Shown here: positions 35,131 through 64,000 of the stretch, in pieces
Numbering within the stretch: position 1 is the stretch's first letter
Layout: each line of letters starts with the position of its first letter
NCBI GenBank assembly: GCA_018296165.2
Contig: JACKQL020000036.1
Location: 456,473-520,472, forward strand
Length of the DNA: 64,000 nt
DNA from: Termitomyces sp. T153
Taxonomy: Eukaryota > Basidiomycota > Agaricomycetes > Agaricales > Lyophyllaceae
Direction: 5' to 3'
The notes under the pieces: model-generated
What the model saw: only the letters and a program-made list of their open reading frames with translations
The model's database searches: none
What the model was told of the DNA's origin: nothing
Program-made: the position numbers and the translations under genes

Positions 35131-35148
35131 TACCTTACCCCATTTGTG

Positions 35149-41334: not shown

Positions 41335-41479
41335 CCATGGAGGTTGGAAATGGAAGTCAGAGGTCAGAAATGGAAGTCCCCTGACATCACCCCCCCTCTA
41401 GCATGCAGTGTCTCAACATGTGGGGTAGAAGAAGTTCCAGATCACCTGGTCTGCTGATGAGATGGGGTAGATTCCTCAG

Positions 41480-42720: not shown

Positions 42721-43155
42721 TCTAGCAATTCAAGAGTTGTGGCATTGCTCTATGATCCTGTGATGGAGCTCTGGGATATTGGGCATGTAGATGTGGTTGT
42801 AGAAGGTCAGAAGTCTGTCTCTGAGAGCCCATTTATCTGTACAGACAGACTTGGCACTAGTGTGTCCCAACTTCAGGGCCTGGGCCACCTGAGCAACAAG
42901 TTCCTCCTAGTGACCATCCCAATTTCCATGTCAGATGTCCCAGAGGATGTCCACCTCCACTCCCTTGATAGCTAGACCTTCCATGGCTTGGATTGCAAAC
43001 AATTCATGGTGGAGGAGCACAATGTTGCTATTATTGTCCCCTTCAGTGCCATGGTCTGCTCTCCAGGACAAGGCATCTGGCTTCTCCATACTCTAGCCTG
43101 GCTTGTGATGCAGCAAGAAGTCAAAGTTGGCTAGATAGAGGGACCACCAAGCTTG

Positions 43156-44220
43156 TCAGTGGTTGAGCTTCTTTGCTGTCTGGAAATACTTAAGGTTCTT
43201 GTGATCTGTCCAAACCTCAGACTTGTGCCATGCACTCTTTAAGAAGTGCCACCACTCTTTGAAGGACCAGATGATGGCCAGCATCTCTTTGTCATAGATC
43301 TTGTAGTTACTCTCTACTGCATTCAGGCTCTTGGAGTAAAAGGTCACTGGATGCCACTTCCCATCTCCCAGGGATTGTTGCAATAGAACAGCTCCAGTAG
43401 TGAAGTTGAAGCTGTCAGCTTCCACCTGGAAGGGAGAGTTGTCATCTGGAAAGAGAAGGACTGGTATGGAGGTGATAGTGTGCTTGAGAGCATCAAAGGC
43501 CATCTGCTTTAGAGGCCCCCAGCTCCAGATAGTGTCCTTTGTGGTGAGGTTGAATAGAGAGCAGGTGTGATGTAAGAAATCCTGGATGAACCTCCAGTAG
43601 AAGTTAGCAAAGCCTAGGAAGGCCTGCACTTCCTTCTTGTTGTTGGGCTCCAGCCACTCTGCAACACCTGCCACCTTCACTAGATCCATCTCTATGGCTC
43701 TGTGCAAGATGATCAGCCCAAGATACTCAATCCAGGTCTGTTTGAACTCACCCTTCTCCAGTTTGAGATAGAGTTGGTGATGGCAGAAGCATTCCAGAAT
43801 AAGGTGCATGATCCAGCAGTGCTCCTCTAATGTTTTGGTGTAGATAAGGATGTCATCAAGGTATATGCACACAATGCCTTCAGCAATGAGGTTCTGGAAT
43901 ATATTGTTCATCATTGTCTAGAAGGTGGCCAGACTATTAGTGAGTCCAAAGAACATGACAAGAGGTTTGAACAGTCCCTGGTTGGTCTAAAAGGTGGTCT
44001 TCCATTCATCCCCTTCCTGGATGCACATGTTGTTGTAGCCCCACCAAACATCCAGTTTGTTGAAGTACTGTGCACTCTAGAGGTTATTGATGAGCTTGAA
44101 GATGAGGGGAAGGGGGTAGCAGTTCTTCACAGTCATAGCATTAAGAACCCAGTAGTTCTGAACCAGTCAGAGCAAGCCATCCTTCTTCTTGATGAAGAAA
44201 ATTGGAGAAGCCATTGGAGA
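43156..44220 (-). pseudogene. Reverse transcriptase and RNase H relic of the decayed Gypsy
   Basis: An open stretch at 43156-43914 includes the catalytic IYLDDILIYTK, EVQAFLGFANFYWRFIQD, an RNase H start (FQVEADSFNFTTGAVLLQQS) and YKIYDKEMLAIIWSFKEW. The RNase H first Asp reads as EAD in place of the usual ECD. Upstream RT motifs ([28 protein letters not shown]) lie at about 43915-44220 with several stops. Confidence 0.85.
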
Positions 44221-44880
44221 TTTGGAGGAGCAGATGCACCCAGAGTCCAGGTTCTCTTGCAGGAAAGCATTGAGTTTGTCCTGCTCCTTGGACATCAGTG
44301 GGTAGACCTTACAGCTTTAAGGCTTAGAATCTGGCATTAGTTCAATGGCATGGTCCCACTGTTTACATTCCAGGAGCAAGTCAAATGAGGCCTTAGAGAA
44401 TATGTCCTCAAATACATGGAGATATGGAAGCACAATGTTTTGGAATGCTTGGAGTGCTGAGTTAGCAGTGAATGCCTGGGCCAGCCACTGGGATGTGGTC
44501 TGGCTAGCCTGGATCTATGGAGGATGGCAAAGAGTATAAGGTGGTGGCATAGATCCAGTCTCCAACTTTCACTGCCTTGTTCAGGATCTCCAGCTCATGT
44601 ATGCCTCCAGACTCCTCTTCTAGTTCCTCCTCTGGGGCCCTGCCACTGCTCCAGTTGTCCTCATAGAGGGCTTCTCTATGGGGAAATGCTAGGGGCAGGA
44701 GTCCAGGAGGTCTAGATCCACAAAGAGGAGATGGCCAGTGCAGCATGCTCAAATGGCTGCATGCTCACAAACTTCAGCCCGGTACTCTTCTTTGACCTCA
44801 GTAGTGCAGGTGGAGCACCTCTAAGGGCATTGGCTCATAGTTACCTTGCTCCAGGCCCAATCTACTTCAGGGTTGCACTC

Positions 44881-45222
44881 TTAGAGCCATGTAAAACTAA
44901 GGATCATGTCCTGCTTTCCTAGACTGGTGACAGCAAAGACTGCCTGCTTGGCATAGTTCTGGTAGTAGAGAACAAGGTCTATCATGGAGCTGATGACACT
45001 GGCTTTGTTGGGCATCCCATCAAAGTTGAACACTGGAATGGGTTGGGAAAGTGGCTGTGTAGTCAGGCTGTGGTGCTTTACCAACTCCAAGTCTAGGAAC
45101 AGTCCTGTCACCCCACTGTCCAAGAGGGCAGTAACTCTGCAAGTTTGCTGGGTGTCTATGGTCTCAATTTCTATGTCAAGATGCAGTGAGTTGGCAGATG
45201 AGCTTGAGGCCACTATGTACAA
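44881..45222 (-). pseudogene. Retropepsin relic of the decayed Gypsy
   Basis: The 113-codon frame contains ALLDSGVTGLFLD, the D-S/T-G active-site motif of retroviral-type aspartic proteases, and a distal LGKQDMILSFTWL that matches the ILGxxWL end of fungal Gypsy proteases. Only one such domain is recognisable here, whereas element B has two. Confidence 0.7.
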
Positions 45223-46533
45223 CCAGAGTAGTTGGTGCTCTCAGGCAGGGCAGCACTGATAGAGCCTAGCTGGTGTCAAGGGGCTGGGCTTGGACTCTGG
45301 AGTTTGTATTTGTATGTCTGGAGAGGAGAACTGAGGTTTTAGTTTTAGAATGATCAATATTGGGAAGGACAATTTCATTTTCTAATAACAGATATGAGAA
45401 CCTGTCAGTACCCAGCAATGGAGGTGTACACCTCATCTGTTGCTTGACTAAAAATCCTCCTCTGAGGGTGTCCAAGCACCAATCTCCTCTGGGGTCAACT
45501 CCAGTGCTGGCTCATCTAGTGACAGAGCTCCACCAGTATCCTTCACTGCCAACAGCTGCAGGAGAAGCTCCTCCTGCTCTGCCATTTAGAAGTAATGCAC
45601 CTCCAAATCCAATAGGCAGTGTTGTGCAAAGTACCCTGATTTTTTGCATCCCTGGTACAAGAGCAGCACAGGGTGGTGCTGTTGGGCTGCATCTATGTCC
45701 ATGGGGATGCCTAGCAGCAAGGGGCATGATGCAGGGATAGCTGGAGCAGGAGCAGGTGCTGAGAGTGCAGGAGTGGGGTAATGGAGACTAGCAACCAGAG
45801 TGGGGCACTGTATTGGGTGCAAGTGGCGGAGCTCTTTTCAGATCTCCATGAGCTGCCACTGGTCCCAGGCCACCTTGTACCAGGAGGTAATCCTTTCATT
45901 GTCTAGGCAGCCCTCAGCCATGTTATTGATGGCTCTATCAGCATGGGGTGCAGGCCATCTCAGAATGCAAGGCATAGTTGGAGACCATTGGAGTAGGCAG
46001 CTTGCTTGACTAGTGCCCAGAAAGAGTTAATGTACTCATCCAGCATCTACTTCTCTTGCTCATACTGCTCCCTGTCACATAGTGCTAAAGCAGCAGTTTT
46101 GGTAGAGTCAATAGAGAAAAACTCTGCTTAGAAGTCTTTCTTAAAGGCAGCTCAATCTGCAAAACTTCCAACACCTCTGGAGTGGCAGAACACTTGTAAC
46201 ACATAGGTGGAGGCCCATCCAGTCTTAACATATAACAGCACCTATGTTATCTTCAATGCATCAGAGTCAAAGGTGTCTCTGCTGAGGTGGGTATAGATGA
46301 GACAGGACTAGAGGAAATGCTCCCCACCATAGCAAGCACTATTATACACATCTGGGAGCACAGAGTGTGGGATTCATGCTTGAAGGGACAGTAGAGCTAT
46401 GGGAGTGACCATTGGAGTCACTGGAAGTGGTTCTGCTACTAGGGGTGGTGCAAAGATAGGGGGCAGGCATTCTAGCAGTGCCTGGAGGGATTGGAAAATA
46501 TGATCAGTAGTCTAGTAGAGGGTAGAGAGTCTA

Positions 46534-47107
46534 TGTCATGACCCATTCCCTGGACCCCCACACATCGTCCAGCAACCCCCTGATTCCCCAATAACCCCTG
46601 ACACTCTGCCGAACTGCTGCCCATGCCCCGCACCTATTTTGGTTAGCCCTGACGCAACCCCGGCTAACTCTGATGGCCCCCTGGCCAACTTCAACGCCTT
46701 CCCCGCAGCCACTGACACTTACTCTGGATCTCCCGAACCCCAAGAACCACCCCCGCTGTTCCCAATCTTTGCCACCCATCATCAACTCAACACCCTGGTT
46801 CCTCCAACCCCTTCCGGAGTATCCCAACAACCTCGGGGCGACCCGCGTTCCCAAATGATCCCATCAATGTATCAGCGTGGCCTGATCCTCGATTGCAACC
46901 AACACCCGCCCACTCTGTCAAGCTCCGCCAAGCCCCGCCGCCGCAGCCGACGTACCCTGAAGTTCTCCGGTAGTCAGTATATAAGCCGTCAAGTAGCTCT
47001 TCGTACTCTAGTCTTGATATTGCTTAACATTACCTATGGTCTGATTGTTTCCTTCTCGTGTTTTGTGTTTTGTGTTCATGTTTTGTGTTTTGTGTCTTGT
47101 TCTCCTT
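46534..47107 (+). repeat. Truncated family-A LTR (A5), cut by element B
   Basis: It starts TGTCATGACC at 46534 and contains the family-A TATA box (about 46978) and the agtcttgatatt start region. It stops abruptly at 47107 where the LTR of element B begins. The remainder should lie on the far side of element B, outside the window. The 5 bases at 46529-46533 (gtcta) are its presumptive target duplication. Confidence 0.8.
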
Positions 47108-48145
47108 TGTCATGACCCGCTCCCTAGATCCCTAGACATGGCCCCCAACCCCTCCCGATAACTCCCCGCTCCCTAGATCCCTAGACACAGCCCCCAACCC
47201 CTCCCGATAACTCCCCGGAACCCCGCCCACACTTTCGACGCCCACACTGGGCAACTCCGACGCTTCTCCGGCAAACCCCGACGGCAACTCCCTATCCATA
47301 GCCATCAACACCCCCTTGAAACCTTCCCCCACCGTTCCTGGCCACATCATACGTCCCCGACCCCCTACCCTAGTTCACCCGACCCATCCTGGAGTGCCAC
47401 AACGTCCCCGGAGCAGCCGCGCCCCCAACTGATCCCATCAGAATACCGCCGTGGCCCGACCTTGGGTTGTACCCAACACCCGTCGACTCAGCACAGCTCC
47501 GTCGACCCCCGCCATCACATCCGCCGCCCTCGGAGGCACCCAGTAGTTGGTATATAAGTCATAGAATAACTCCTCGAACCTTAGTCTTGATATTACATTT
47601 TACCGGTTTCCTATGTTTCGTCTCTCGTCTCGTCTGTATTTCTGTTCCTAGGTTTCGAATCTATCTTTTCTCAGTCTTGTCTCGTCTCCGTCTCGTCTCG
47701 ACTGTACATATTTCCTTTGTTCCCCTGAAGTTCCCTTGCTCCCTACGTCAGTACGAACTCCGTGCACGCGCCACGACCTGAACATTCTTAACGACAACTC
47801 CGGGCCTCGCTACCCGCTCGCCCCCGGAACCCACCAAGCCCCGGTAATCCCCTATCCAACCGACCCCGCCCCCCAACAGCCGAGAAACCTCCGCCTACCC
47901 CGCAATCTCCTCGTGCGTCCACTAACGAGCTCTGACACCCACCCCGGGTCAGCGACCAGTACCTCCGGTCTTAGACCCCTCTGAATCACTCCGGACTTAC
48001 TCGGGCCGCTATCCCTAGGGACCCCTCGCAAGCTTTCCCCACCTCCGCTCCAACCCCGGGCGCCTGGTTATAAACGCAGGACATCGCGTCCGCCTAGTAA
48101 GGACTCGCCAGTGTACTGAGCCACCGTCGTCAGCGGAACCTGACA
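47108..48145 (+). repeat. 5' LTR of element B
   Basis: 1038 bp, TGTCA...TGACA. The TATA box is at 47551-47558 and the predicted transcript start region tagtcttgata at 47582-47592. A 49-bp duplication (47118-47166 and 47167-47215) is present here but absent from the 3' LTR. Confidence 0.9.
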
Positions 48146-48148
48146 GAT

Positions 48149-48159
48149 TATCAAGACTA
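48149..48159 (+). other. Primer-binding site of element B, self-complementary type
   Basis: The bases tatcaagacta, 3 bp after the LTR end, are the exact reverse complement of tagtcttgata at 47582-47592 in the LTR, about 31 bp after the TATA box starts. This is the same arrangement as in family A. Confidence 0.7.
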
Positions 48160-48177
48160 CCCCTTACCCCGTTCTCA

Positions 48178-49686
48178 ATGTCTGCGTTCAACCCCGCGTA
48201 CAACCCAGTCGGTTACTCAACCGACGCCTACGGCCGGCCCATATTGGAAAATTCCTACGCCCCATTCTACCCGGGCCCCTTCGCGGACCAATATGTGCCC
48301 CGTCACTGGACCCCTGACCCCAACCAGGTGTTCTACGCCCCCTCCATCAGCCAGGGAATACCCCTGGGCTGGTGCCGCCCTCCCGCATTCCACGCCGATG
48401 GCAACAACCCCCGTATCAACCCCGGAGGATACTCCGCAGCACCCCCCAACCCTGCCTACCTTCCCCCCGCCCATTACTATGCGTACCCAATCCCTGCTGC
48501 AGCCCCAGTCCCTCTGGAAGCCACGGATAACTATTCCCCACCCCGCCCACCATTCGCCGTTCAAACCCCTCCTTCCCCTAGGCAGCAAAGGATCGAAGCC
48601 TACACCCAGCAACGTGACGAAGTTCTCCGCTTCCTCCGCCTGTCCCCTGCAGAATTTGCAAGGCGTACCCACACCCTCCTTACCAGCCTAGGCTACCCCG
48701 ACACCTCCGCAACCCCGGAGGTCTGGGCGGACCGACTCCTCGACTTCCACAAACGCTACCTGCAAGGGAACCTCCCGGAGAATACGCAAGGCACCCTGGG
48801 CCTCGACGAGAACTTACGGAACAAGCTCCGCGCCTTGGTCAAAGAAATCCACACTAGCCCGAACCCCCGCCCCTTCAAAGATCCCCTGGATCCCGCCCGC
48901 TCCTTCCACGTGCAACGCGAGGAACCCATCGGGACACGAAACGAAGCCCCATCTTCCGTTCCCCGCCAGCAGGAAGAACTCAACGCGGCCTCCAGCATCT
49001 TGAAGAATCTCAACCCCGCGGGGGGGCTGTTCGACCAACCCGCCGCCCACACCCTGGCCCTCTCTGCCTGGCCCCGGGCCAGCTCGGTGCCCAGCGCCTT
49101 CCGAACCTGAAATCAACCTGCCATCCCCGAAATCCGCTCCCAACGACCGTCCCTACGCGTCAACGACGACAACCGGACCCTCTCCTATATCGACGAGCCG
49201 GGCAACCCCGCCGATGAACACCCCCCGCGCAACGGGCCCCAACAAGACCGACCCCCCCATTTCGACCTCCGCGCCCCTCGTAGCAATGCCCCTCCGCCCC
49301 GTCCCAACGCCCCAGTCCCCCCGCGACAGCCCCTGGGCTCCGGGGCGCCCCGACCTCCTCTGTCCGTCAACCCCTCTCGTCCCCCGCCCGCCCCGATGCC
49401 TAACCCCCCCAACGACATCAACTATTTCGGACCCCCAAATCCCGAAGGACCTTCTCCTCCTCGATGGGCCCCAGGACCCGCCCCGGGTAGTGTAGGTCAA
49501 AACCCCGGTGGGGGACCACCCAATGGCGGACCCCCAGGAGGATGGGGCCCGGCGATGGACAATTTTCCCCCCCAGCGCGGAAATGGAAACAACTACTACT
49601 ACTACTACAACGCCGGACCCCCACCCTGAACTCAAAATTTGCAGGATGACACCCGCGACGCACTGGCCCGGGAAGGAAAGCTCAAC
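48178..49686 (+). pseudogene. gag of element B, N-terminal part
   Basis: The frame opens MSAFNPAYNPVGYSTDAYGR and is rich in Pro, Tyr, Asn and Gly. An alpha-helical stretch (QQRDEVLRFLRLSPAEFARR) lies near 48608-48670. Two in-frame TGA codons (49108-49110 and 49627-49629) interrupt it, each in a context where an Arg CGA is likely. The frame then runs to LAREGKLN, where element A3-A4 was inserted. Gag would form the virus-like particle that packages the element's RNA. Confidence 0.8.
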
Positions 49687-50850
49687 TGTCAGGGTCCGCT
49701 GACCTCGGGGGCGCAGCTGCACTGGGCGAGTCCTTACTAGGCGGGCGTGATCCCCCTGCATTGGTGACCGGACACTCAAAGACATTCTGGGTCCTGGGGG
49801 TTTGCACGGGTAATTGGGGAGATGTGATCCAGACAGGTCCGGGAAGGTCCGGAGAAGTCGGATTGTGGGGAAATGAGACGGTCTTGGCGGGGTTCAGGCA
49901 GAAGGCCGTACGGGAGATTTGCGGAAGCAAGGGAGTAGGTGGCTGTGTGATCAATGGGGGCGGAGCCGGGGTTTGATGGGAGATCATTTGGAGTTGATGG
50001 AGTCCGGGACCGAGCGAAGAGTGAGGTTCGGACTTGGTAAGGAGTGTCGGGGTTCGTAATTATAATCGCAGAGTTCGTGAGGTCGTTAGGGTTGATGAAG
50101 AATTGGGCACAAGGGTCAGACGACGTCACCGAGACGGCATCGGACAAGACAATATGGAACAAGAGTAGATTCGAGTGGGGGTACGAAACGATAACGAGAA
50201 CGATAACAAAAAGGGGACGAGACAAGACCGGGAGACTGAGATAAGACCGGGAGACTGAGATAAGACCGGGAGACTGAGATAAGACCGGGAAACTGAGAGT
50301 AAGGAGAAAAAGATACGAAAACGAACACGAAACACAAAGAGGAAACAATCAGACCATAGGTAACGTTAAGCAATATCAAGACCGGAGTACGAAGAGCTAC
50401 TCGATGACTTATATACTGACTACCGGAGGACTTCGGGGTACGTCGGCTGTGGCGGCGGGGCTTGGCGGGGCTTGACGGAGCGGGCGGGTGTCGGTTGTGA
50501 TCGAAGATCGTGCCGCGCTGATACGTTGATGGGATCGCGGGTTGTTCCGAGGTTGTCGTGATATTCCGGAATAGGTCGGAGGAAGCAGGGTGTTGAGTTA
50601 ATGATGGGTGGGCGAAGATCAGGAATAGCGGGGGTGGTTCTCGGGGTTTGGGAAGCCCAGGGTAAGTGTCAGTGGCTGCGGGGCAGGCACCGAAGTTGGC
50701 CAGGGGGCCGTCGGAGTTAGCCGGGGAGGTGTCGGAGTTAGCCGAAGTAGGCGTGGGCATGGGCGGAAGTTCGGCGGAGCGTTGGGGGTCCTTTTGGGGG
50801 TTCGGGGTTTGATGGACGATGTGCGGGGTTTTGGGGAACGGGTCGTGACA
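49687..50850 (-). repeat. 3' LTR of element A3-A4
   Basis: 1164 bp in minus orientation. It differs from its partner mainly by carrying about four copies, rather than two, of a 20-bp repeat (gataagaccgggagactga) at about 50215-50300. Confidence 0.9.
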
Positions 50851-51060
50851 TCACCCCCCTTTCAGCGTCGAGACCCTTCGAGACGCGGGGGAGGACGGGG
50901 ATCGGCGGGGCGTGGGAGTCGAAGCCGAGCAATATTGATCAATCCGCAGCGAGTGATAGCGGCGTGGGAGGCGAAGTCGAAGCGCGGCCGCCGTTTCGTC
51001 AGGGTCCTCCTCACTCAATTTAAAGCTTTGGGCGTGCCCCGGGGTTTCCCAAATTTCGTC

Positions 51061-52191
51061 ATGTCTTCTCCCAGCGTTCCAGTGGTTTCTCCCGCCGATT
51101 TAGACGAGGTGGTGGTGTATGACAGTGGGGGTGAGGAGTTCGAGCGTCGGCGCCGGGGTAGCGTTAGGGACCGGAGTCGTAAGTGTTGTCGAATTTTCCT
51201 TTCGGGATGGTTAACGGGGTTCCGGTAGAGTCGTCCGTAGTAGTAGTGGTGGACTTTCCGGGGGTTCCGAAGCGGACCAAGTTTCGTCCCGCGGTGCCAA
51301 AGGGGAAGGGGGCGTCTTCGGTGGTGGTTCGGGGAAAGCGTCGAGCTTCCCCACCCTCGGGGGCGGGACCCAGCAAGAGGCCGCGTGGGCGCGAGTTGTC
51401 AGCGGGGCCTCCCGAGTCTTCCCTCTTTTCCCCTGTCCCTGGCGTTCCCTCGGAGCGGTCGTCGAGTCCCTCCGCGCCGATTCCTTCAATCACGGAGGTC
51501 TTCCTTCGTAAGCAGGTGGAGGCCCTGACAACGTCGTTGGCAGTACGGGAGGGGGAGCTCCGCCGGGCGAGGGAGGATCGTGACGTGGCGCGGACGGAGA
51601 AGGAAGCGATGGAGCGGGAGAGGAATACTTCGGTGCGCGTGGCGACGGAGCGGGCGCTAGAGGTGCGGGGTCTGCGGGAGCGTCTGGCGCAGGTGGAGGG
51701 GCAACCCGCGGGGGAAGCGGAGGGGCGGGGACGAGTTCCGGAGGGGGATGCGTTGTGGGCGGAGCTGGAGGCGGCGAGGCGGAGGGAGGATTGGTTGGCC
51801 AACGAGGCCGCCTCGGGTCGCGCGGGGATTCTTCGTGAGTTGTCTCCCGTTCCTCCGTTCGTTATTGACGGTTCATTTTCGGAGTTTAGGCTGGGTGCGG
51901 GAGCATCGGGTCCTCTTGGACGGTGCCTCCGCGGCGTTCGCGTCGATTCAGGACGGGTTGACGCAGGGGTCCGCGGTCCAGCCTCCGGAGTTGCAGCAGG
52001 GAATGGCGCGGTTGGAGAGGTTGCTGGCGGGGCATCGGCGACGCAATGCGGTGGCCCCGGGGTCGTGGTGGGAGGTGGCGGCCGATGCGGGGGAGGCATT
52101 GCCGGGGTTGGCGGAGATCCTAGCGGTGGTGCGGGCCCAGATGGAGGTCGACCTGGGGGTTGGGCTTCCGGGAGGTCTGGGGAGGGAGTGA
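51061..52191 (+). CDS. Antisense accessory gene of element A3-A4, coiled-coil protein lacking the Cys cluster
   Basis: The gene runs opposite to its element. The proposed exons 51061-51178, 51229-51834 and 51890-52191 join into 341 codons. It opens MSSPSVPVVSPADLDEVVVY and continues through GKRRASPPSGAGPSKRPRG (a basic, NLS-like stretch) and ITEVFLRKQVEALTTSL. A long Arg/Glu coiled coil follows (REGELRRAREDRDVARTEKE and on to about RLAQVEG), then RREDWLANEAASGRAGIL. The C-terminal block is WVREHRVLLDGASAAF and SWWEVAADAGEALPGLAEIL. The second intron (gtgagt...ttag) is needed to reach that block. Compared with the other two copies, the segment with the six cysteines is deleted, and the first intron may be a by-product of that. 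It is intact as spliced; whether it is expressed is unknown. Confidence 0.6.
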
Positions 52192-54496
52192 GATGGGTGT
52201 GGGCCTCGTTTCTTGTCGCTCTTGGACTTGCTGCCTTCCCGCCTATTGTATATATGATTTTTTGTACGCGAACATGTCATTTCTTGGTCCCTGGGCGTGT
52301 GAAGTGAGATTTTTAGTTTTGTCGGAGGGCAAAGTAAGCGAAACACGCAGGGGTGTGAGAGGGAGTTGAATCCCTAGTGAGTCCAGAGGCGGGGGTTACG
52401 CCCGCTAGTGCCGTCTGCGCTGGCTAGTCCCGGGGTTGGTCGGGACGGGGCGGGGCATCGCAGGAGGGCTCCCGGGGTCTGTCGGGGTTGGTGGGAGTTC
52501 TCCGGTGGGGTCCCCGGCATTTCGGGCGGTGTCGTTGAATTCGTTTCTCGGAAATTTTCGACTGGGGGTGTAGGGGACGTGCGCCGTTTTGGTAGTAGAG
52601 GGTGGCCTTTGAATTTTGTACGGCGCCCAACGGGTTCGGGGCTTTGGTTGTCTTGGCGGTGCGGTGGGCGGGGGGTAATGGGGGTCTTCCCATGGTCTAG
52701 CCCTTACGTCGGTATTGGTGGTGAAGGCGGGCGGGCCCTTTTTTATTGGCGGGGTTGGGTGAGGCGGGGTTCGTCTTCGCAGTATAGTTGGTCCGGGTCG
52801 GGGTTGTGTTCTGGAGTGCTGCGTCTGTGGGCGGGCCTGCTTCGGGTGGCGCTTTGGTGTGCTCCGGAGTGTCGATGACCGAGGGGGTAGGATGCGGGGT
52901 GATCAGTCCCAACCAGTTCCTTCGGGTCCGGGGCCCAATTTGGGGTTCCGGGTCATCTACGTGATATTGCTCTCCTGACCAAAGATAAGCCCGCAGCGGA
53001 CAAAGGGGGTCTTACGTATTTCTGATACTTCCTCAAGTTCGGAGGTTCGGGGGTCGGTGGTCCCTTCATCGGGAAGAAGTGGGTGATCCCGGAGTCGACT
53101 CAAGGGTCACTTGGTGGGGGTTTGTTGGTTGTTCCTGGTTGTTGGGGCGGCGGGAAGGTCGGCCGCGGGGGGCACTGGAGTGGGGCTCCCCGGGAGATGC
53201 GGCAGGGTCGGATTTACTCTTCGTTCGTGTTCCGGAGTGGTCCGGAGATTGTGCAGGTGCAGGGGTGATAGTGGGGGGAGGCACTGCCAGCTTGTCTGGA
53301 GGCCCCGGTGATGTGGTCCCTGTTCGGGCGGACATATTCCGGTGTAGGGGCGGGGTTCGGAGTGGGTGGTGATTTCTGTTGCGGAGTTGGGGCTACCAGG
53401 GCATCGTTGTCGAGCCGGCGCTGTGAGTTTTCTTGGTCAGATGTCGGGGTCGGAGCGGAGGCCCTGGAGTCGTGTCGCCAGGGTCCGGAGCTGGGTTGAT
53501 GGGTTCGGAGGGGTCTGGGTGGGACGGTGGGACTGTTTCGGGCTGGCGCGGGGTCGTTTTGGGTCGTCGAGCCAGATGGGGGAGGTCTTTTGAGGATATG
53601 GGAGCGCGTGCCCTTGGGGTTGTCGGGTCGCTTAAATGGCCGATCGTTGTTTTCTGGATGATGGTGGGGCTTCTCCCTCCCTTATATGAACATGTCAGCG
53701 AATTTAGAGCACTTAGGGAACTACTTCGTATAGGGTCCTTTTTCCCTATAGTTAGTTCGGAGTGGCCCCTATGCTGGGGATTCCTTCGTGGGAGGTGGCG
53801 TAGTCTGGTGGCGGAGTGTAAGCTCGGGGATGTTTTGGTCCTGTTCCGGGGTTGTCAGGGTCGGGTCGGGGAAGTCGGGGCCCCTTCATTTGTTGGGCGG
53901 AGGTGACGGCCGATCGATCGAGGTCCGGAAGCAGGTCACGGGGTTGGAGCATAGCCTAGGTCTGAGGTTCTTGTCCTGTGGTGGATTCGAGCTTGATTTC
54001 GATGGTTTCGGGGTTAGTTGTCGGAGGGTTTAGTTCCTTGGAGGGGGTCGATAATAGGGTTTGGTGATGTTGTTGGTGATTAGTCGCGTTCGTCGGTCTG
54101 CGGGGTTGCTGGGGGGCCGGTGAATCCACAGGCGGGCTTCGGGGAAGCGCGTTCTCAGTGGTTTCTTTGTAGCTGGCGATCCTCGCGCTGTGGGTGACTG
54201 TTCCATGGCAGCTTGGCATTATTGTGGGTCGGAGGACTGGCGCGGTGCCGGAGACCTTGTTACTCATTCGATCGGATGGTCGCCAGGCTTTAGGATGTTA
54301 TTCTTTGGGTGATGTCGGGGTCGACTTTGTGCGAGAGAGCGGAGTTGGCGGGGAGTGTAGGGGTGGGGTGGAAGATGAGTTGACGGTTTGCGCGAGGGGT
54401 TGGGAGTTGGGTGTGAGTTGGGGAAGGCGTCCGTGGGGGGAGCCGTTGTATGAAAGTAACTGGAGCGGAGGGGACGTTTGGTGTCGGATCCACGAC
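52192..54496. other. Non-coding interior of element A3-A4
   Basis: This 2.3 kb has only short chance frames on either strand. In the element's own orientation (minus), a relic of the pol linker (EKGPYTK...SKFADMF-like) can be read near 53680-53760. The rest has no feature I can name. Confidence 0.5.
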
Positions 54497-54610
54497 TCAA
54501 TGTGCCTCGGCAAATTGGGCAGGGCCGTATGAATCATAAGGGTTCCCCGGCACGGGTAGACCATAGACATCGGAGTTATTTGATTGTGTGTGCGGAGATA
54601 ATGCGGGCAT
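54497..54610 (-). pseudogene. Short gag N-terminal relic of A3-A4
   Basis: A 37-residue frame opening MPALSPHTQSNNSDVYG and ending AQFAEAH before TGA, just after the primer-binding site. It matches the relic in A1-A2, including the stop position, and the start of gag in element B. Confidence 0.65.
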
Positions 54611-54642
54611 CACGGACGGGGTAAGGTCGGGTCTTGATATTA

Positions 54643-55764
54643 TGTCAGGGTCCGCTGACCTCGGGGGCGCAGCTGCACTGGGCGAGTCCTTACTAGGCGG
54701 GCGTGATCCCCTGCATTGGTGACCGGACACTCAAAGACATTCTGGGTCCTGGGGGTTTGCACGGGTAATTGGGGAGATGTGATCCAGACAGGTCCGGGAA
54801 GGTCCGGAGAAGTCGGATTGTGGGGAAATGAGACGGTCTTGGCGGGGTTCAGGCAGAAGGCCGTACGGGAGATTTGCGGAAGCAAGGGAGGAGGTGGCTG
54901 TGTGATCCATGGGGACGGAGCCGGGGTTTGATGGGAGATCATTTGGAGCTGATGGAGTCCGGAACCGAGCGAAGAGTGAGGTTCGGACCTGGTAAAGGAG
55001 TGTCGGGGTTCGTAATTGTAATCGCGGAGTTCGTGAGGTCGTTAGGGTTGATGAAGACTTGGGCACAATGGTCTGACGGAGTCACCGAGACAGCGTCGGA
55101 CGAGACAATATGGAACAGGAGTAGATTCGAGTGGAGATACGAAACGATAATGAGAACGATAACGAAATGGAGACAAGACAAGACCGGGAGACTGAGATAA
55201 GACCGGGAGACTGAGAGTAAGGAGAATGGGACACAAAACACGAAACACGAAAAGGAAACAATCAGACCATAGGTAACGTTAAGCAATATCAAGACTAGAG
55301 TATGAAGAGCTACTCGATGACTTATATACTGACTACCGGAGGACTTCGGGGTACGTCGGCTGTGGCGGCGGGGCTTGGCGGGGCTTGACGGAGTGGGCGG
55401 GTGTCGGTTGTGATCGAAGATCGTGCCGCGCTGATACGTTGATGGGATCGCGGGTTGTTCCGAGGTTGTCGTGATATTCCGGAATAGGTCGGAGGAAGCA
55501 GGGTGTTGAGTTAATGACGGGTGGGCGAAGATCAGGAATAGCGGGGGTGGTTCTCGGGGTTTGGGAAGCCCAGGGTAAGTGTCAGTGGCTGCGGGGCAGG
55601 CACCGAAGTTGGCCAGGGGGCCGTCGGAGTTAGCCGGGGAGGTGTCGGAGTTAGCCGAAGTAGGCGTGGGCATGGGCGGAAGTTCGGCGGAGCGTTGGGG
55701 GTCCTTTTGGGGGTTCGGGGGTTTGATGGACGATGTGCGGGGTTTTGGGGAACGGGTCGTGACA
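54643..55764 (-). repeat. 5' LTR of element A3-A4
   Basis: 1122 bp in minus orientation. The TATA box complement is at about 55321-55328. The transcript start region complement aatatcaagact is at 55285-55296, matching the PBS at 54631-54642. It has two copies of the 20-bp repeat. Confidence 0.9.
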
Positions 55765-55769
55765 TCAAC

Positions 55770-56690
55770 ATCCAGAAGCCCGAACCCTTCACCGGCCGCG
55801 ACCCCTGGAAGTGGCGAATCTTCCTGACCCAGTGTTTAACTATGTTTCAAGCTAAGCCCATCACTTTTCAGCTTGAGAGCTCACGAGTAGCCTTTGCCGC
55901 ATCATACTTACAGGGCATCGCCTTCGACCACTACACCGCGCTACTCCGGTTTGACCCAAACAATCCCGTACTCTCCCATTGGCTCGCTTTCACTCAAGAG
56001 TTCTCGAGTAAGTTTGGCGTCTTTGACACCGTAGCAGAGGCGGAGGAAAATCTCTTCAACCTCCGAATGCGCGACAACGAACGCTTCACGACCTTCATCG
56101 TACGATTCGAACGAGAGGCCTACGAGACCGGCTGGAATTACAACGCCCTCCGGTTCGCCCTCTGCCGTGCCCTGCCCCAACGGATCAAGGACGTCCTTCG
56201 CCTCGCGCCCAAACAAACCACCTACGACGGGTACAAGGCGCTCGTTACCCAGGTCGACCAACGTTATTGGGAAGATCGCAGCGAAAACACGGCGCCCCGG
56301 ACCTCGTGGAATACCTCTGGTAACACCAACTGGCAGGCTGGAGCAACCAATGGCATCCGACCCTCCATCCCCGCTAACCCTGCTAACCCTGCACCCCGCT
56401 TCCCCCCGGGCCGAGGAGTCCCCAACGCTAATCGGCCCCCGGGGCAGCGACCACCCGCCCAGCTCAACACCGCCGACCTCCACGACACCCTAGTACCTCT
56501 GGATACCAACCCCAACAATCGCGATGACATCCCGGACCCCGCCGACGATCAGGAAGCCCTATGCGCAAACAGGATCCAGGACAGTCAGTGGATCGACGTG
56601 CCGGAAGAAACGCAGGAGAAACAACGGAAGGAGGGCGCGTGCATCCTATGTGGTGAGCAGGGACATTTTATTTGCAGTTGCCCTAAATGA
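55770..56690 (+). pseudogene. gag of element B, capsid and zinc-knuckle part
   Basis: It continues the gag frame after the inserted element: IQKPEPFTGRDPWKWRIFL, then SFDHYTALLRF-like and GVFDTVAEAEENLFNLRMRD, the usual capsid text of Ty3/Gypsy gag. A nucleic-acid-binding knuckle CILCGEQGHFICSC (C-x2-C-x4-H-x4-C) lies at about 56641-56682. The frame meets TGA at 56688-56690 and then stays open to TAG at 56769-56771. The first stop may therefore also be a mutated Arg codon. pol is in a different frame. Confidence 0.85.
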
Positions 56691-56842
56691 CAGGTGATGG
56701 GACGCGCCGTGTGGACGATCGACGGAGAAGACTGTAACTACCAGTTCACGGAAAACGAGTCAGCGGTTTAGGTCTGGAAGACGCACTAGACCGCGGACCA
56801 CATCCCGACGTCTTCTCCGCCCCAGCCACACTCCTCCGCGCA

Positions 56843-59800
56843 ATGATGCTCGCCCCGGACAACCCCCCAGCACACCTCCCCTCCCACTCCTCCACAAACC
56901 TCCTCCTCCGCACCACTCTCCCCTTCACCGACAAACCTGTCCCCACACTAGTCGACAGCGGTGCCACCGATAACTTTGTTGACGAATCCCTGGCAGCGCT
57001 CGCCCCACAACCCCTCCGCCGTCTTCCCGCCCCGATCCCCCTCAAACTCTTTGACGGAGACTCTACCCCAGCGGGAGACATCACTCATTGCCTAGAAACG
57101 ACCCTGACCTTTGCCGACGGACAACAGCAAGAACTCCGGCTACTCGTCACAAAATTACACCCCTCCGCCCCCGTCGTCTTAGGGTTCTCATGGCTCCGCT
57201 CCACCAATCCCCGCGTCGATTGGCCCAGTCTCACCCTACGCCTCGACCGGGACAACCCCGCCAATTCCGGACTGGTACCCTTCCATGTCCCACCCCCCTC
57301 CGAGAGCTCCGAGGCCACGATCAACCAACCCCGGACCCCGCCGCAACTTCGCTCTAGGTCTGCGCGATCGTTCGTCATCTATGTCCGACTTGGCGGCTCG
57401 CTCAAGGTACTTCCCGCCCTCGTAGACAGCGGCGCCTCCGGTGTCTTCGTCAGCAACCAACTCGACCTCCGATGCAACGACCTCGACAAACCCCTCGAGC
57501 TCCAACTCTTCGATGGGAGCCCCGCCACGACAAGAATCACGCAGTACCACGACAACACCCTCACCCTCGATAACGACCTGCAGTTCCAGGCCCGACTCCT
57601 CGTTACCCAACTACCCCCGTCGACCCCGATCGTGCTCGGACTCCCGTGGCTGCGAGACGTCAACCCCGACATCAACTGGAAGAACCTTACCATGCAATTC
57701 CCCGGCCCCGAAGCAAGCTTAGCAGCCGCCATCCACCTCTGCTTCCAGCCTATCCCGGACCCCGACGCCACCCCGGATCCGACTGCTACACCTACGGGAC
57801 CCGGCCCCGTCGACTCCGGAAACCTCGACATTAAAATCATCGGCGCCGTCCCCTTCGCGCGCCTCCTACGAGAAGGCACCCCCGCCTTCCAGTTGCAAGT
57901 CACGCCGGCCCTACCGGAGGAATACCTCCGCGCAGGGACTACCACGCCAGAAAAGAAGACAGAGGAACAGATCCTATCCGAAGTAGTTCCCCCGGAGTAT
58001 CATAAGTTCGCTGACGTGTTCTCCGAAGGAAGTGCCAAGGAACTCCCTCCGCACCGCTCCTACGACCACCAGATCGACCTCGAAGAAGGCACCTCACCCC
58101 CGTTTGGCAAGATCTACAACATGTCCGAAATCGAGCTCCGGGCCCTGAAGGAGTACCTCGACGAGATGCTCGGCAAAGGTTTCATACGTCCCTCGATCTC
58201 CGCGGCTGGTGCTCCGGTTCTGTTCGCCAAGAAAAAAGACGGATCCCTCCGACTCTGTGTGGATTATCGGGGACTCAACAAAGTCACCAAGAAGAACCGG
58301 TATCCCCTCCCCTTAATCAGAGACCTTGTTGATCGCCTTCGCAGCGCCAAGATTTACACAAAAATTGACCTTTGTTCCGGCTACAACAACGTCCGGATCG
58401 CCCCGGGGCATGAATGGAAGACCGCCTTTCGCACCCGCTATGGCCTCTTTGAGTATCTCGTAATGCCCTTCGGAATGACTAACTCCCCCGCCACCTTCCA
58501 GTACTTCATGAACGACATCTTTCACGACATGAACGACGTCTTTGTCATCGTATATTTGGACGATATCCTGATCTACTCGAATTCGCCGGCGGAGCATTCG
58601 GAGCACGTCCGCCGTGTCCTGGAACGACTCCGAGAGTATCACCTTCATGCTAAACCCGAAAAGTGCTCATTCCACACAGCGGAAGTCGAATATCTCGGGG
58701 TCATCGTCACCCCCGACGGTGTGCGCATGGACCCCGCCAAGGTCAACGCGATACTCAACTGGCCCTCCCCGCGGAACGTCAAGGAGGTACAGTCATTCTT
58801 GGGGTTTGCTAACTTCTATCGCCGCTTCATCGACAACTACTCCGGAATCACCAAACCCCTCAACCGGCTCACAAGGAAGGACACCCCTTGGGATTGGGAC
58901 AGCAAGTGCCAGAGCGTATTCCTCCTCCTGAAGAAGGCCTTCACCTCCGCTCCGGTCCTCCACCATTTCGACCCCTCCCTACCGATCGTGCTCGAATGTG
59001 ACGCCTCCGACTACGCTATCGCCGGGATACTCTCCCAGTCGAACTCGGAGGGCAAGGATCTCCGCCCCGTCGCCTTCTACACCTGATCAATGATCCCAGC
59101 GGAACTCAACTACGACATTTACGACAAGGAACTCCTCGCGATCGTCGAAGCCTTTTGTCAGTGGCGGGCCTACCTCGAAGGGTCCCCGCACCGCATCCAA
59201 GTCTACTCCGATCACAATAACCTGCAATATTTCACGACCACGAAACAGCTCAGCCGCTGCCAGGCTCGATGGTCCGAAACCCTTTCGGAGTACGATTTTA
59301 CCATTCACTACCGCCCCGGGCGACTCGGCGCAAAGCCTGACGCCCTCACTCGGAGACCCAACGTGTATCTGAAGAAATCGTTTGAAACCGAACGAAATGC
59401 ATTTAACCATCAAGTGGTAATCCCACCCGAACATCTACATGCCATGCTGATTTTGAACGAAGAAGGAATCCTCCAGCAAATCAGGAATTCACCCCCGGAC
59501 CCCTTCTTCAACCAGCACGACCCCCGCAACAACCCCGACGAATCGAGTGTAGACAACCCCTTTTCGCTATCCCCGGACCACCGCCTGCTGCTCCGGAGTG
59601 GACGAATCTATGCCCCGGACCACAAGTCCATTCGCCTCGACATACTCCGGCAGCACCACGATCACAAACTCCGGGGGCACCCAGGAATTCGTAAGACCCT
59701 TCAACTCATCTCCCGGACTTATTTTTGGCCAGGAATGAAGAAGGATGTCACGTGATACGTGAGGGCCTGCGAACCCTGCCTATGGGCCAAGGTCCCCCGC

Positions 59801-60922
59801 CATCGCCCCCACGGATTACTGAAACCCCTCCCTGTCGGTCGCCGCCCCTGGTCTTCAATATCGATGGATCATATCGTCGAACTCCCCGACTCCGAAGGTT
59901 TTGACGCAATCCTCGTTGTCGTCTGCCGCCTTACCAAGCAAGCCCTCTTTATTCCCTGCCACACCACTGACACCACCCCGGATTTCGCCAAACTATTTCT
60001 AGAACACGTATTCTCCAAACACGGACTTCCCGACAACATCGTCTCTGACCGTGGACCCCTATTCGTATCTCATTTCTGGCAATCGCTGTGCAAGGCGCTC
60101 GAGATCAAGACCAGCCTCTCTACCGCCTACCACCCGGAAACCGACGGGCAAACCGAGCACGTAAACCAGACGTTAGAACAGTATCTTTGCCTCTACGTTA
60201 ACTATTTACAGAACGACTGGCACGCGGAGCTTCCCCTCGCCGAATTCACCTACAACAACACGCCTCACTCCGCCACCGGAGTTTCCTCCTTTTACGCCAA
60301 CAAGGGCTACAATCCCCGACTCACGCTGTCCCTCAAGGACATCCCCTCCCACATTGCCCATGAAGTCACCGAGGACCTCTGCTCCCTCCACCAATTCCTC
60401 CGGGACAAGATCGACACCGCCAACCAAGCCTACTCCAAGCACGCTGACGCCCGTCGCCAGCCTACCCCCGACTGGCCTCCCGGCACCTTGGTCTGGCTCG
60501 ACCAACGAAATCTTAAGACCCGGAGGCCTTCTATCAAACTCGACCACAAACGCCTCGGTCCATTCAAGATCCTCCGGAAGGTCTCCACCCACACTTACAA
60601 GCTCGACCTGCCTCCGGGCCTGAAGGGCCTCCACCCTGTGTTCCATGTTCGACTCCTTGACAGGCACACTCCAGACCCCTTCCCCGGCCAACGCCCCAGC
60701 CGACCGCCCCCCGTCGAAGTCGAGGACGAGTATCACTGCGAGGTCAATGAGATCCTTGACTCCCAGGTAGTTCGCGGCCGACTCCAGTACTTGGTCCACT
60801 GGAAGGGCTACGGACCTGAGGATGACACGTGGGAACCCCAAAAGAACCTCGACAGAGCCCCCGATGAACTCCGGGACTTCCACCAATGGAATCCTGCCAA
60901 GCCCCGGAACCCCCGGGACTGA
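56843..60922 (+). pseudogene. pol of element B: doubled protease, RT, RNase H, integrase, chromodomain
   Basis: One frame of about 1360 codons from the first Met at 56843 (it is open a little further upstream), broken only by TGA at 59084-59086 and 59753-59755. Residues 23-134 and 177-286 are two related retropepsin domains, each with LVDSGA (Asp38 and Asp195) and an ending of the form VVLGFSWL or IVLGLPWL. RT follows with KIDLCSGYNNV, FGMTNSPATFQ and YLDD at residues 571-574. RNase H has ECDASD and [12 protein letters not shown]. Integrase has the H/H/CxxC zinc site around 59650-59780, then catalytic D (SMDHI), D (VSDRGP) and E ([10 protein letters not shown]). The C-terminal chromodomain reads EILDSQ...[19 protein letters not shown]. 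The element would need another source of pol to move now. Confidence 0.93.
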
Positions 60923-61152
60923 CCCAACACAGATGGCAATAGTGGGCATAACCCCCACCTCTGGGTTCACCAGGGATTCAACTCCCACCAGTACTCTCCT
61001 ACATGTTTCCACTTACTCCTCTCCTCGCTCTATCTGAAACTCCCCGCACTCAGCAGAAGGTCCAAAGACTGTATAGGCACAAACAATGTACAGGTATATA
61101 CTTGAACAAGAAAGGGGCAGGGAACAAGTCAGCGACGGGGTCTGAATTCCCC

Positions 61153-62848
61153 TCACTCTCCCTCCTCCTCCGACCCTAACCCCGCTACCCTTCCCACCAT
61201 GAACACCTCCAACTGTGCCACTACCACCGCCAGAACCTCGGGTTGCCCGGGGAGCGGTTCCCCTACGTCCATCGCCATCTCCCACCACGCCCTGGGATCT
61301 GCCGTTGCCCTCCACCGATGCCCTGCCAACAGACGCCCCATCTGCATAACCCCTTGACCCAACTCCGGCGGAAGGTCCCCGGGCATCCTTGCCAACCCAT
61401 CATGGATGGACCCCAGCGCTGCTGACGCTCCATCGAGAAGGATGCGATGCTCCCTGGCCCAGTCTATGGAACCTGAATCAGCGCTTAGGAGACGAAAGCA
61501 GGGAAACCACTCATGAAGCACTCCTTGCTGGCCCGAGGCCACCTCGTTGGCAAGCCATTCCTCCCGCTGCCACGCCCTCTCCGCCGCTGCCTGGACTTCC
61601 CCAGCGCTGGAACCCTGCTGGGTCTCCCACACCCCTGAGCCTCCTGCCTGCTGCGTCGCCACCTCCGCCACCTCTGCCCACGCCTGCAAATGCACCGTCT
61701 GCACCTCCAACTCCTGCAGACGAGACAATCGCTCCGCGGCAGTCCCAACGGCGACGTCCTTGTCTTTCCGCGCCAAGTCCCGTTCCCTCCGAACCCCGTC
61801 CAACTCCCGTCGAGCCCCGTCCCTCTCCTCCCGTACCCCCTGAATCTCCTCCTCACGTGCAACCAACAACCGTTCCAAGCCCTCTACCTGACGCCGCAGA
61901 TAGGCCTCCGCAACCGACCACGACCTATCCGCGGACTGCTCAACGGGGGCTCCGGACGTAGGGGAATACACCGCGGAACCAGGGGGGCCCCCCATTACCT
62001 GCTCGCCCCGCGCCCGCTTACTGGGACCCGCCTCGGGTGAAGGGGACGCCCTCCGTTTCCCTTTCTCCTGCCTGGAAGGGGCCCCCTCCCTCCGTCCACC
62101 CCGCGGAGGGCCCACCTTCATGACAGGCGCGCTAACCCGTTCCCCTTCCCCAGCCCCGGAGCCCCTCCCTGACACCCTGCCCTTCCGCCCTTCCTCCAGC
62201 TGCACTGCGACCCAACCCTGATCCCACCCTTGCTCCGCCGCGACGCAAACAGCCCGCCAGCTCAGGGTGACGGAGCACTTCTTGTGCCGCGAACGGCATG
62301 GAAGGCACACCGACGTGTCCCGCCGTACCCCCGATGCTGGTTCCTCAAACTCACACTGCTCCCCTTGTCGGGTACAAGACGCACACTGCAGGGGCATGTT
62401 GGTTCGGGAAACATGAAGCTAAATGACCACTCACCGGGGCCGCCGCCTGACACCACTCGAGGGTGGGGGGACCCCTCGCCCGACCCACCGCCTCGGCAAA
62501 CTGCTCCGGCGTCACCTCCGCCTGTACCACCCTTGAACCCTCTGGGACAAGCCGGACCACCCCCGGGCGAATGCCAGACTTGGAACGCATAGAAGTGACC
62601 ACGCCCGCCGGGGGCTGCATCGCATCTGCACCAGACGGTGGCCCTGAGGGACCAGCCACGGCCGCGGACAACTCTGCGAAGGGACAATCAGTGTTCTGGG
62701 GTACAGGGAACGGGCCGCACTCACGACTACGGTACATCGCCTCGACCCGACGGCGATCTCGGCGACCCTCTGAATCTTCGGAGGACGACGGCTGGGAAGG
62801 CGGGGACGGCGACCTAGATGCTGTGGGAGAATAAGCTGAAGAAGACAT
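61153..62848 (-). CDS. Antisense accessory gene of element B: Cys-cluster, coiled-coil protein
   Basis: It is encoded opposite to the element, between the chromodomain and the 3' LTR. The ATG at 62848 opens MSSSAYSPTASRSPSPPSQP. Exon 1 (62435-62848) ends LEWCQAAAP. A 49-bp intron (62386-62434, gtgagt...ctgcag) is removed in phase 0. Exon 2 opens CASCTRQGEQCEF and then CLPCRSRHKKC, six cysteines as two C-x2-C-x6-C units, like a Zn(II)2Cys6 binuclear cluster with the units 15 residues apart. The rest has a basic KGKRRASPSPEAGPSKRARG, a long Glu/Arg coiled coil (LRRQVEGLERLLVAREEE onward), WQREEWLANEVASGQQGVLH and the C-terminal block WAREHRILLDGASAALGSIH. In total 548 codons stay open. A DNA-binding or nucleic-acid-binding role is inference from the cluster and NLS-like stretch. 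Confidence 0.7.
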
Positions 62849-62968
62849 TGCGACAAGCTGGCGGACTCCTGGGTGCGTCCACCCCTTTTAATAAATTAAG
62901 AAGGGGCCCCTGACGAACGGCGGCCGCACCTCGACTTCCTTCCCCACGCCGCCGCCGCTCGCTGCGGT

Positions 62969-62986
62969 TTGATCAATATTGATCAA
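62969..62986. promoter_or_regulatory. Palindrome in the leader of the antisense gene (element B)
   Basis: An 18-bp perfect palindrome, ttgatcaatattgatcaa, lies 121 bp upstream of the antisense ATG. Related sequence sits at the same place in A3-A4 (attgatcaat, 50934-50943) and A1-A2 (40092-40101), inside a longer conserved block. An AT-rich TATA-like stretch at about 62889-62901 lies between it and the ATG. Confidence 0.5.
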
Positions 62987-63048
62987 CTTCGATTCCCACG
63001 CCCTACCGATCCCCGACTCGCTCCCCGCGTCTCGAGGGTCTCGACGCT

Positions 63049-63061
63049 GAAGGGGGGGTGA
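63049..63061 (+). other. Polypurine tract of element B
   Basis: The bases gaagggggggtga directly precede the 3' LTR (63062), where a polypurine tract primes plus-strand synthesis. The same tract is found before the 3' LTR in A1-A2 and A3-A4. Confidence 0.8.
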
Positions 63062-64000
63062 TGTCACGACCCGCTCCCTAGCTCCCTAGACACTGCTCCC
63101 AACCCCTCCCGATTTCCCGCCTAACTCCCCGGAACCCCGCCCACACTTTTGATGCTCACACCGGACAACTCCGACGCTTCTCCGGCAAACCCCGACGGCA
63201 ACTCCCTCTCCGTAGCCATCGACACCCCCTTGAAACCTTCCCCCACCGTTCCTGGCCACGTCATACGTCCCCGACCCTCTACCCTAGTTTACCCGACCCG
63301 TCCCGGAGTGTCACGACGTCCCCGGAGCGGCCGCGCCCCCAACTGATCCCATCAGAATACCGCCGCGGCCCGACCTTGGATTGTACCCGACACCCGTCGA
63401 CTCAGCACAGCTCCGTCGACCCCCGCCATCATATCCGCCGCCCTCGGAGGCACCCAGTAGTCGGTATATAAGCCATAGAATAACTCCTCGAACTTTAGTC
63501 TTGATATTACATTTTACCGGTTTCCTATGTTTTGTCTCTCGTCTCGTCTCTATTTCTGTTTCTAGGTTTCGAATCTATCTTTTCTCAGTCTCGTCTCGTC
63601 TCCGTCTCGTCTCGACTGTACATATTTCCTTTGTTCCTCTGAAGTTCCCTTGCTCCCTACGTCAGTACGAACTCCGCGCACGCGCCACGACCTGAACATT
63701 CTTAACGACAACTCCGGACCTCGCTACCCGCTCGGCCCCGGAACCCACCAAGCCCCGGTAATCCCCTGTCCAACTCCGACCCTGCCCCCCATCAACCGAG
63801 AAGCCTCCGCCTACCCCGCAATCTACTTGTGCGCCCACTAACTAGCCCTGACACCCGCCCTGGGTCAACGACCAGTACCTCCGGTCTTAGACCCCTCCGA
63901 ATCACTCAGGACTTACTCGGGCCGCTCTCCCTAGGGGCCCCTCGCAAGCTTTCCCCACCTCCGCTCCAACTCCGGACGCCTGGTTATAAGCGCAGGACAT
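63062..64000 (+). repeat. 3' LTR of element B (truncated by window end)
   Basis: It begins TGTCACGACC and matches 47108-48145 over the 939 bp visible, including TATA box and start region. It lacks the 49-bp duplication of the 5' LTR. The last about 80 bp and the flanking target duplication lie outside the window. Confidence 0.9.

Follow-up and report, generated by a model that had tools for sequence, protein, structure and literature searches.

The question raised by this locus is whether an LTR retrotransposon can own a gene with introns. The window, a stretch of 64,000 nucleotides from Termitomyces sp. T153, is the end of its contig (C36), and the host genome searched comprises 72.4 Mb in 307 contigs. 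A sequence-only reading had described a gene of 548 codons with one intron, antisense to the gag-pol of a chromodomain Gypsy element (here element B) and just inside the 3' LTR, and had judged it to be probably a true accessory gene. The placement of the gene is confirmed by the domains and repeats of the element:

47165–48145, plus strand: 5' LTR of element B, its left end placed approximately
56738–60922, plus strand: pol of element B, with protease, RT, RNase H, integrase and chromodomain matches and two internal stops
63062–64000, plus strand: 3' LTR of element B, ending at the contig end

The chromodomain at the integrase C-terminus (PF00385, E 1.7e-15) identifies element B as a chromovirus. 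The location of the gene in the window, flanked by pol and the 3' LTR and running opposite to the element, is that of an antisense accessory ORF of the aORF-3R kind, and the LTR starts 214 bp beyond its ATG. The window copy is a dead element because its gag region is broken by a second element, A2 (49687–55764, nested inside 47165–64000), and because of the two stops in pol. At least one internal stop in pol is present in each of the 18 B copies examined. The window ends inside an LTR (63062–64000), and another contig, C109, begins near the same point of a copy with 99.8% identity, which makes assembly breaks or haplotype copies likely at LTRs.

The antisense gene consists of four exons and three predicted introns:

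62725–62848, minus strand: exon 1, ATG at 62848–62846 (sequence, copies and relatives)
62674–62724, minus strand: predicted intron A, 51 nt, in frame, GTGAGT...CTGAT...GCAG (20 copies, 10 relatives)
62435–62673, minus strand: exon 2 (20 copies, 10 relatives)
62386–62434, minus strand: predicted intron B, 49 nt, directly before the six-cysteine block (copies, relatives and element A1)
61515–62385, minus strand: exon 3, with the six-cysteine block, a basic stretch and a predicted coiled coil (sequence; coiled coil from the model of homolog P0002)
61464–61514, minus strand: predicted intron C, 51 nt, in frame, whose 5' splice site reads AT, not GT, in the window copy
61153–61463, minus strand: exon 4 including the stop codon (sequence, copies and relatives)

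As originally described, the minus-strand frame runs from ATG to stop (62848–61153) and is open over 548 codons once the 49-nt GT-AG intron at 62434–62386 is removed. This intron holds, but it is not the only one. Introns A and C were overlooked because both are in frame; the clue to them is that stretches which are in frame here are missing from some NCBI gene models of homologs, and splice consensus flanks both. Removal of all three introns from the copy L025 leaves a protein of 514 aa.

A DNA search yielded 40 scored copies with 93–100% identity over the full 1696 bp, from 625 first-look candidates. The best-scoring 20 of the 40 (L009–L028) were taken with their pol as the sample of the B family; these copies were located by the gene search itself, so the sample covers elements that carry the gene. 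The length is exactly 1696 bp in all 20. The 5' splice site has GT in 14 copies at intron A (AT in the other 6), in 19 at intron B and in 16 at intron C. The constant length and the GT at intron B exceed what chance would give. Nine of the 20 frames contain no internal stop, and 11 contain one to four. The main mode of decay is transition at CpG sites, which makes up 848 of the 1372 minority letters among these copies and also hits the C|GT of the 5' splice site in introns A and C. The strength of this decay in element copies suggests CpG methylation of repeats in the fungus.

Codon tests within the B family included 19 copies of the gene (L010 was dropped as a near-duplicate of L009) and 18 of pol (L010 and L023 dropped), and counted introns A and C as coding. 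When all variants were tested together the signal was weak, swamped by recurrent CpG decay; separation by CpG sites and by number of carriers cleared this. Non-CpG variants carried by at least three copies comprise 36 synonymous, 19 nonsynonymous and 0 stop changes, against 19.6, 34.0 and 1.5 expected from context-matched placement, a result reached by 0 of 1000 simulations. Variants in two copies follow the same order of classes (12/7/0, expected 6.7/11.4/0.9). Those in a single copy are near expectation (35/55/3, expected 31.4/57.4/4.2), as foreseen for decay after insertion. Among the non-CpG variants, neither of the two shifted frames shows a synonymous excess. One reverse frame is also low (ratio 0.50 vs 0.45), because third positions are shared. 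In pol the same test gives the same pattern more strongly (67/25/0, expected 30.8/59.7/1.4). With CpG sites included, the signal of the antisense gene is weaker (90/115/3, expected 76.3/127.8/3.9; P 0.022).

Ten diverged loci, with matched segments 40–89% identical in protein, served as relatives, and dN/dS against these was computed from exons only. Between L025 and its six deepest relatives, dN/dS is 0.211–0.325 in the true frame and 0.83–1.11 in the shifted frames, and six deep pairs among other relatives give 0.216–0.341 and 0.70–1.10. Two sister pairs have values of 0.54 and 0.56 (shifted, 0.62–0.75). The true frame separates poorly in the close relatives of L025 (0.39–0.66, shifted 0.62–1.11), and in L037 its value of 0.66 is not below both shifted frames (0.75 and 0.63). 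The protein is thus conserved, by codon tests, across copies that were located via the gene, and a neutral open frame is rejected on the same tests. The gene reading was to be abandoned if dN/dS proved close to 1 and frames were broken in most family members. The deep values of 0.21–0.33 contradict the former; on the latter the families are mixed, with stops in 11 of 20 B copies and in 1 of 20 copies of A2. There is very little doubt that this is a real gene under selection, and the description of it as a true accessory gene is borne out by purifying selection at the codon level.

The introns are shared well beyond the B family. All ten relatives share the position of introns A and B, and nine share that of intron C (L035 is truncated at C). 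GT is found at the 5' splice site of A in six relatives, of B in ten and of C in seven, with AT in the others, and the AG of intron A is missing in L036. Lengths are 51–53 nt for A, 48–51 nt for B and 46–62 nt for C, often no multiple of three. In the six deepest relatives the intron interiors have an identity to L025 of 0.29–0.52, and the exons of 0.63–0.69. The gene is opposite to and beside the C-terminus of pol in nine of the ten (L032 has no pol match, and that of L035 is partial). Simple patterns applied to published Termitomyces gene models (113 proteins) score intron C as spliced in 32 and kept in 17, and intron A as spliced in 11 and kept in 13, the others being unscorable; the models thus bear out the predicted introns in part.

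Reverse transcription uses genomic RNA of the sense strand, where antisense introns are unrecognisable and are therefore copied unspliced. At up to three mismatches, the spliced junction of intron B of element B has 0 matches genome-wide and its unspliced boundary 146; for intron A of A2 the counts are 0 and 240. These patterns cover B-like and A2-like sequences only. Precise intron loss was not found in any of 50 loci (20 B, 10 diverged and 20 A2). The counts agree with the original proposal that introns on the antisense strand survive, and support the view that the introns persist owing to their orientation.

Related genes had also been noted in two non-autonomous elements of the window, and these are corroborated by tblastn, LTRs and target-site duplications (TSDs):

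33969–41334, plus strand: element A1, non-autonomous LTR element, TSD CCATG (LTRs and TSD)
about 39968–38387, minus strand: decayed antisense gene of A1 (tblastn)
49687–55764, minus strand: element A2, non-autonomous LTR element, TSD TCAAC, inside the gag region of B (LTRs and TSD)
51061–52191, plus strand: antisense gene of A2, three exons, predicted introns at 51179–51228 (50 nt) and 51835–51889 (55 nt), 341 aa

Each has two LTRs and a TSD, and tblastn (E 1e-4) finds no match to the gag-pol of B in the internal region of either. A single match of the gag query at the edge of A2 is an artefact of the query frame, which starts in A2's own LTR. The intron before the cysteine block, said to be shared by all three genes, is at the same place in A1; A2 has neither the cysteine block nor intron B, and keeps introns A and C. 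The A2 family is young and very abundant, with 40 scored copies at 98–100% identity, 1361 first-look candidates and the 240 boundary matches. After removal of the 50- and 55-nt introns, 19 of 20 copies give an unbroken 341-aa frame; the introns were removed by alignment column, so that L053, with AT at intron C, counts as intact, and GT is present at both introns in 18 of 20. The unspliced reading meets a stop at 55 aa in all 20. An intact A2 protein therefore needs frame-changing splicing, and this, together with the conserved splice sites, makes it highly probable that a spliced antisense transcript is made.

The products of A2 and B share 43% protein identity over 329 codons (w 0.40), with the first part of A2 force-aligned, its cysteine block being absent, and with L029, L031, L032 and L036 left out, as their joined exons are no multiple of three. 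Over 329 residues, the A2 protein shares 85% identity with part of P0093 from Termitomyces sp. T112. Between A1 and A2, w is 0.36 in the true frame and 0.79 and 1.02 in the shifted frames, and the non-CpG third-position excess is weak (0.264, 0.221 and 0.287 by position). Within the 20 A2 copies the synonymous excess is not significant, and variants are few (16 shared, 8 synonymous and 8 nonsynonymous). That elements without a gag-pol match retain the gene suggests some advantage which gag-pol supplied in trans would not confer.

A second, decayed family of the chromodomain Gypsy type occupies 41370–47082 (minus strand), and its pol is about 36% identical to that of element B. The pol lies at about 45.1–41.5 kb (minus strand) and is followed after about 100 bp by a polypurine-like tract. 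No match to the antisense protein was found after this pol in the window, so the gene is dispensable for elements of this kind. The LTR-like sequence of this family at 46533–47075 is 83% like the LTR of A2, and A1 has apparently inserted in its 3' LTR. At least 150 scored pol relatives occur in the genome, from 3023 first-look candidates. Elsewhere in the window, the stretch 28644–33197 (plus strand) contains frames and a three-copy 102-nt repeat at 29514–29819; by their motifs these frames resemble a Helitron replicase-helicase remnant. Frames at 10903–13591 (minus strand) resemble a MutS-family mismatch repair protein (TGPNMAGKST motif).

The region between the gene and the 3' LTR is also conserved, and contains the following:

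62849–63052, minus strand: conserved non-coding stretch of 204 bp from the gene's ATG to the polypurine tract and 3' LTR, candidate antisense promoter
62969–62986, no strand assigned: perfect 18-bp palindrome TTGATCAATATTGATCAA, candidate regulatory site
62882–62894, minus strand: TATA-like TTATTAAAAGGGG, about 34–46 nt before the ATG (alignment), or ATTAAAAGGG at about 35–45 nt, with a putative promoter role

Between deep families the 204-bp stretch is 68–79% identical with few indels, compared with 63–71% for exons and 41–62% for introns. The adjacent piece of the LTR (29–45 nt) is 56–74% identical, so that the contrast on the LTR side is small. The 16-bp core of the palindrome has 146 genomic occurrences (control, 0), and of the 50 palindrome places listed, 43 are no more than 700 bp from a cysteine-block match that is also listed. 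The TATA-like site falls outside the LTR. A promoter is the simplest reading of the stretch, and its conservation makes it probable that the antisense promoter lies here, internal to the element. The stretch may have a role in the sense RNA, beside the polypurine tract. Action through the palindrome on the LTR or sense promoter was considered and has no site support, since the LTRs of the window carry no further copy.

The predicted protein has a cysteine block, C-x2-C-x6-C-x15-C-x2-C-x6-C, in exon 3. All six cysteines are present in the 20 B copies; among 113 homologous gene models the full motif is found in 39 and half of it in 62. The two C-x2-C-x6-C halves have the spacing of Zn(II)2Cys6 clusters, but the 15-residue linker exceeds the classical one of about 5–12 residues. 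The match to the zinc-cluster family PF00172 scores 17.4 bits, under the gathering score of 21, and at E up to 0.1 the family is matched in 2 of 12 homologs (best E 0.058). Pfam shows no other transcription-factor domain and no bZIP domain, TRP28 is not matched, and a profile search of the PDB gave nothing better than E 0.6. The cysteine block is followed by a basic stretch and then a long helix. The predicted model of P0002 contains a confident long helix at 273–369, a coiled coil, and is poor in the remainder (mean pLDDT 50). Three protein searches, two of them on the best 7989 and 7993 candidates, found homologs in Termitomyces (113 proteins) and none outside it. A zinc-cluster-like DNA-binding dimer is the best guess from these features, as distinct from membership of the family. 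The chances that the product is a nuclear DNA-binding protein appear about even, and its putative role as a regulator of its own element, by likeness to HBZ, is more tentative.

On balance, we favour the explanation that 61153–62848 is a protein-coding antisense gene with three predicted introns, whose product would be a nuclear DNA-binding coiled-coil regulator of the transcription of its own element. The antisense mRNA would begin at an internal promoter in the conserved 204 bp beside the 3' LTR. The three introns would then be spliced out, as indicated by conserved splice sites and by the frame-changing splicing that the A2 protein needs. The sense genomic RNA would be reverse transcribed with these introns unrecognised and copied unspliced, consistent with the lack of a spliced copy for the two junctions sought. 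The protein could enter the nucleus by means of its basic stretch and is predicted to dimerise through the coiled coil. Judging by its spacing, the six-cysteine block, below the Pfam cut-off, may bind DNA, possibly at the conserved palindrome. By analogy with HBZ, the protein may thereby tune the element's transcription. Non-autonomous elements retain the module, and more speculatively, the A2 form without cysteines could compete with the full form.

Some of these observations could also be produced by an anti-silencing factor, comparable to VANC of Arabidopsis VANDAL transposons and TnpA of maize Spm, which would attach to non-coding DNA of its own element and lift CpG methylation. The prevalence of CpG transitions suggests that the elements are methylated, and the combination of a possible DNA-binding factor, a conserved non-coding target and retention in elements lacking a gag-pol match would fit such a role. 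However, the protein has no Pfam or PDB relative, and this alternative seems unlikely. It is equally unlikely that the coiled-coil protein acts without a role in transcription, in the particle or the pre-integration complex, as a chaperone, a tether or an aid to nuclear import. Nuclear import of pre-integration complexes is raised for plant antisense genes (PMC7264820), and the A2 form, without cysteines, retains the coiled coil and C-terminal part. The six cysteines in all 20 B copies and the conserved palindrome upstream point to DNA binding instead.

Two further explanations are both very improbable. In one, the frame would be a by-product and the antisense RNA itself would act, through double-stranded RNA, silencing or control of copy number. 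The upstream region is indeed conserved, and a double-stranded RNA role for antisense transcripts is considered in PMC7264820, but selection tracks codons and is lost in shifted frames, and the introns drift. In the other, the gene would be a neutral hitchhiking open frame or a recently captured host gene. Stops in 11 of 20 single copies could be expected of the former, and three introns resemble a cellular gene. However, dN/dS is 0.21–0.33 over deep families and the gene is beside pol in nine of ten relatives, so that any capture must be ancient, and the searches described above also found no homolog outside Termitomyces.

The favoured explanation, a regulator encoded by an antisense gene, can be extended to a bolder and rather unlikely one. 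The gene would be an independently evolved, HBZ-like, three-intron regulator with its own conserved promoter module. The very abundant young family lacking gag-pol would have adopted this module as its sole recognisable gene, in a form that has lost the DNA-binding block and would be a competitor. The result would be an antisense-gene arms race between autonomous elements and their parasites, and it would be through antisense orientation that a retroelement can have a spliced gene at all. The locus is in any case a clean genomic case in which a retroelement can own a multi-intron gene provided that it is antisense. The introns outlast protein divergence to about half identity, and neither spliced junction that was sought exists in the genome. 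The many natural copies in one genome offer a test bed for the antisense accessory genes of LTR elements, whose role is called unknown in PMC7264820.

The literature was searched, mostly outside subscription papers, for an antisense gene with several introns in a fungal LTR element, for a conserved promoter-like module of such a fungal gene, and for an antisense gene as the sole recognisable gene of an abundant non-autonomous family; none of the three was found. The suggestion that fungal chromoviruses have no described equivalent is nevertheless incorrect. Boty of Botrytis cinerea, which has a gag-pol with a CHROMO domain (PMC4227169), carries brtn, an additional gene in antisense orientation (Zhao et al. 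2011, cited by PMC7264820, PMC8365987 and PMC4227169). Both are antisense extra genes of a fungal chromodomain Gypsy element, but the host of Boty is an ascomycete rather than an agaric, and the two are likened by position and description. An Ectocarpus DNA transposon with an accessory gene on its antisense strand (PMC12477816) was set aside as a different kind of element.

In plants, Grande, RIRE2 and Retand have antisense genes at the same place (PMC7264820). Gene23 of Grande is described as having its own promoter and a nuclear product (PMC7264820), and Retand has ORF4 (TRP28), with antisense ORFs in all clusters, some of them non-autonomous (PMC11963269). These plant aORF-3R genes share with the present one their position and orientation, and occur in most copies of a family (PMC7264820, PMC11963269). 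They differ in that no TRP28 match is found here, and in the three conserved introns and cysteine block of the Termitomyces gene; the word 'intron' is absent from the main text of the Retand paper (PMC11963269). Fungal Zn(II)2Cys6 factors (PF00172) resemble the product in their C-x2-C-x6-C halves, basic stretch and coiled coil, and differ from it in the sub-cut-off Pfam score, the 15-residue linker and the lack of any other transcription-factor domain match here.

A further parallel is HBZ of HTLV-1, a spliced antisense gene beside the 3' LTR whose product represses sense transcription (PMC3185765). HBZ, like APH-2 of HTLV-2, is antisense beside the 3' LTR of an LTR retroelement; splicing of the present gene is predicted from sequence. 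HBZ is transcribed from start sites in R and U5 of the 3' LTR and contains a bZIP domain, whereas the candidate promoter here is internal and the protein has a cysteine block and coiled coil with no bZIP match. APH-2 is without bZIP, so the class of protein can change (PMC3185765). In the rDNA group I intron of Didymium, an antisense homing endonuclease gene contains a 47-nt spliceosomal intron (PMC9548176). It too is carried antisense by a mobile element and loses a short spliceosomal intron on expression, but it encodes an endonuclease and resides in a group I intron of rDNA rather than in an LTR element (PMC9548176). Antisense accessory genes are thus already known from plant Gypsy elements, from Boty in fungi and from HTLV-1; what is new here is a set of three conserved introns, a promoter-like module and an abundant carrier that lacks gag-pol.
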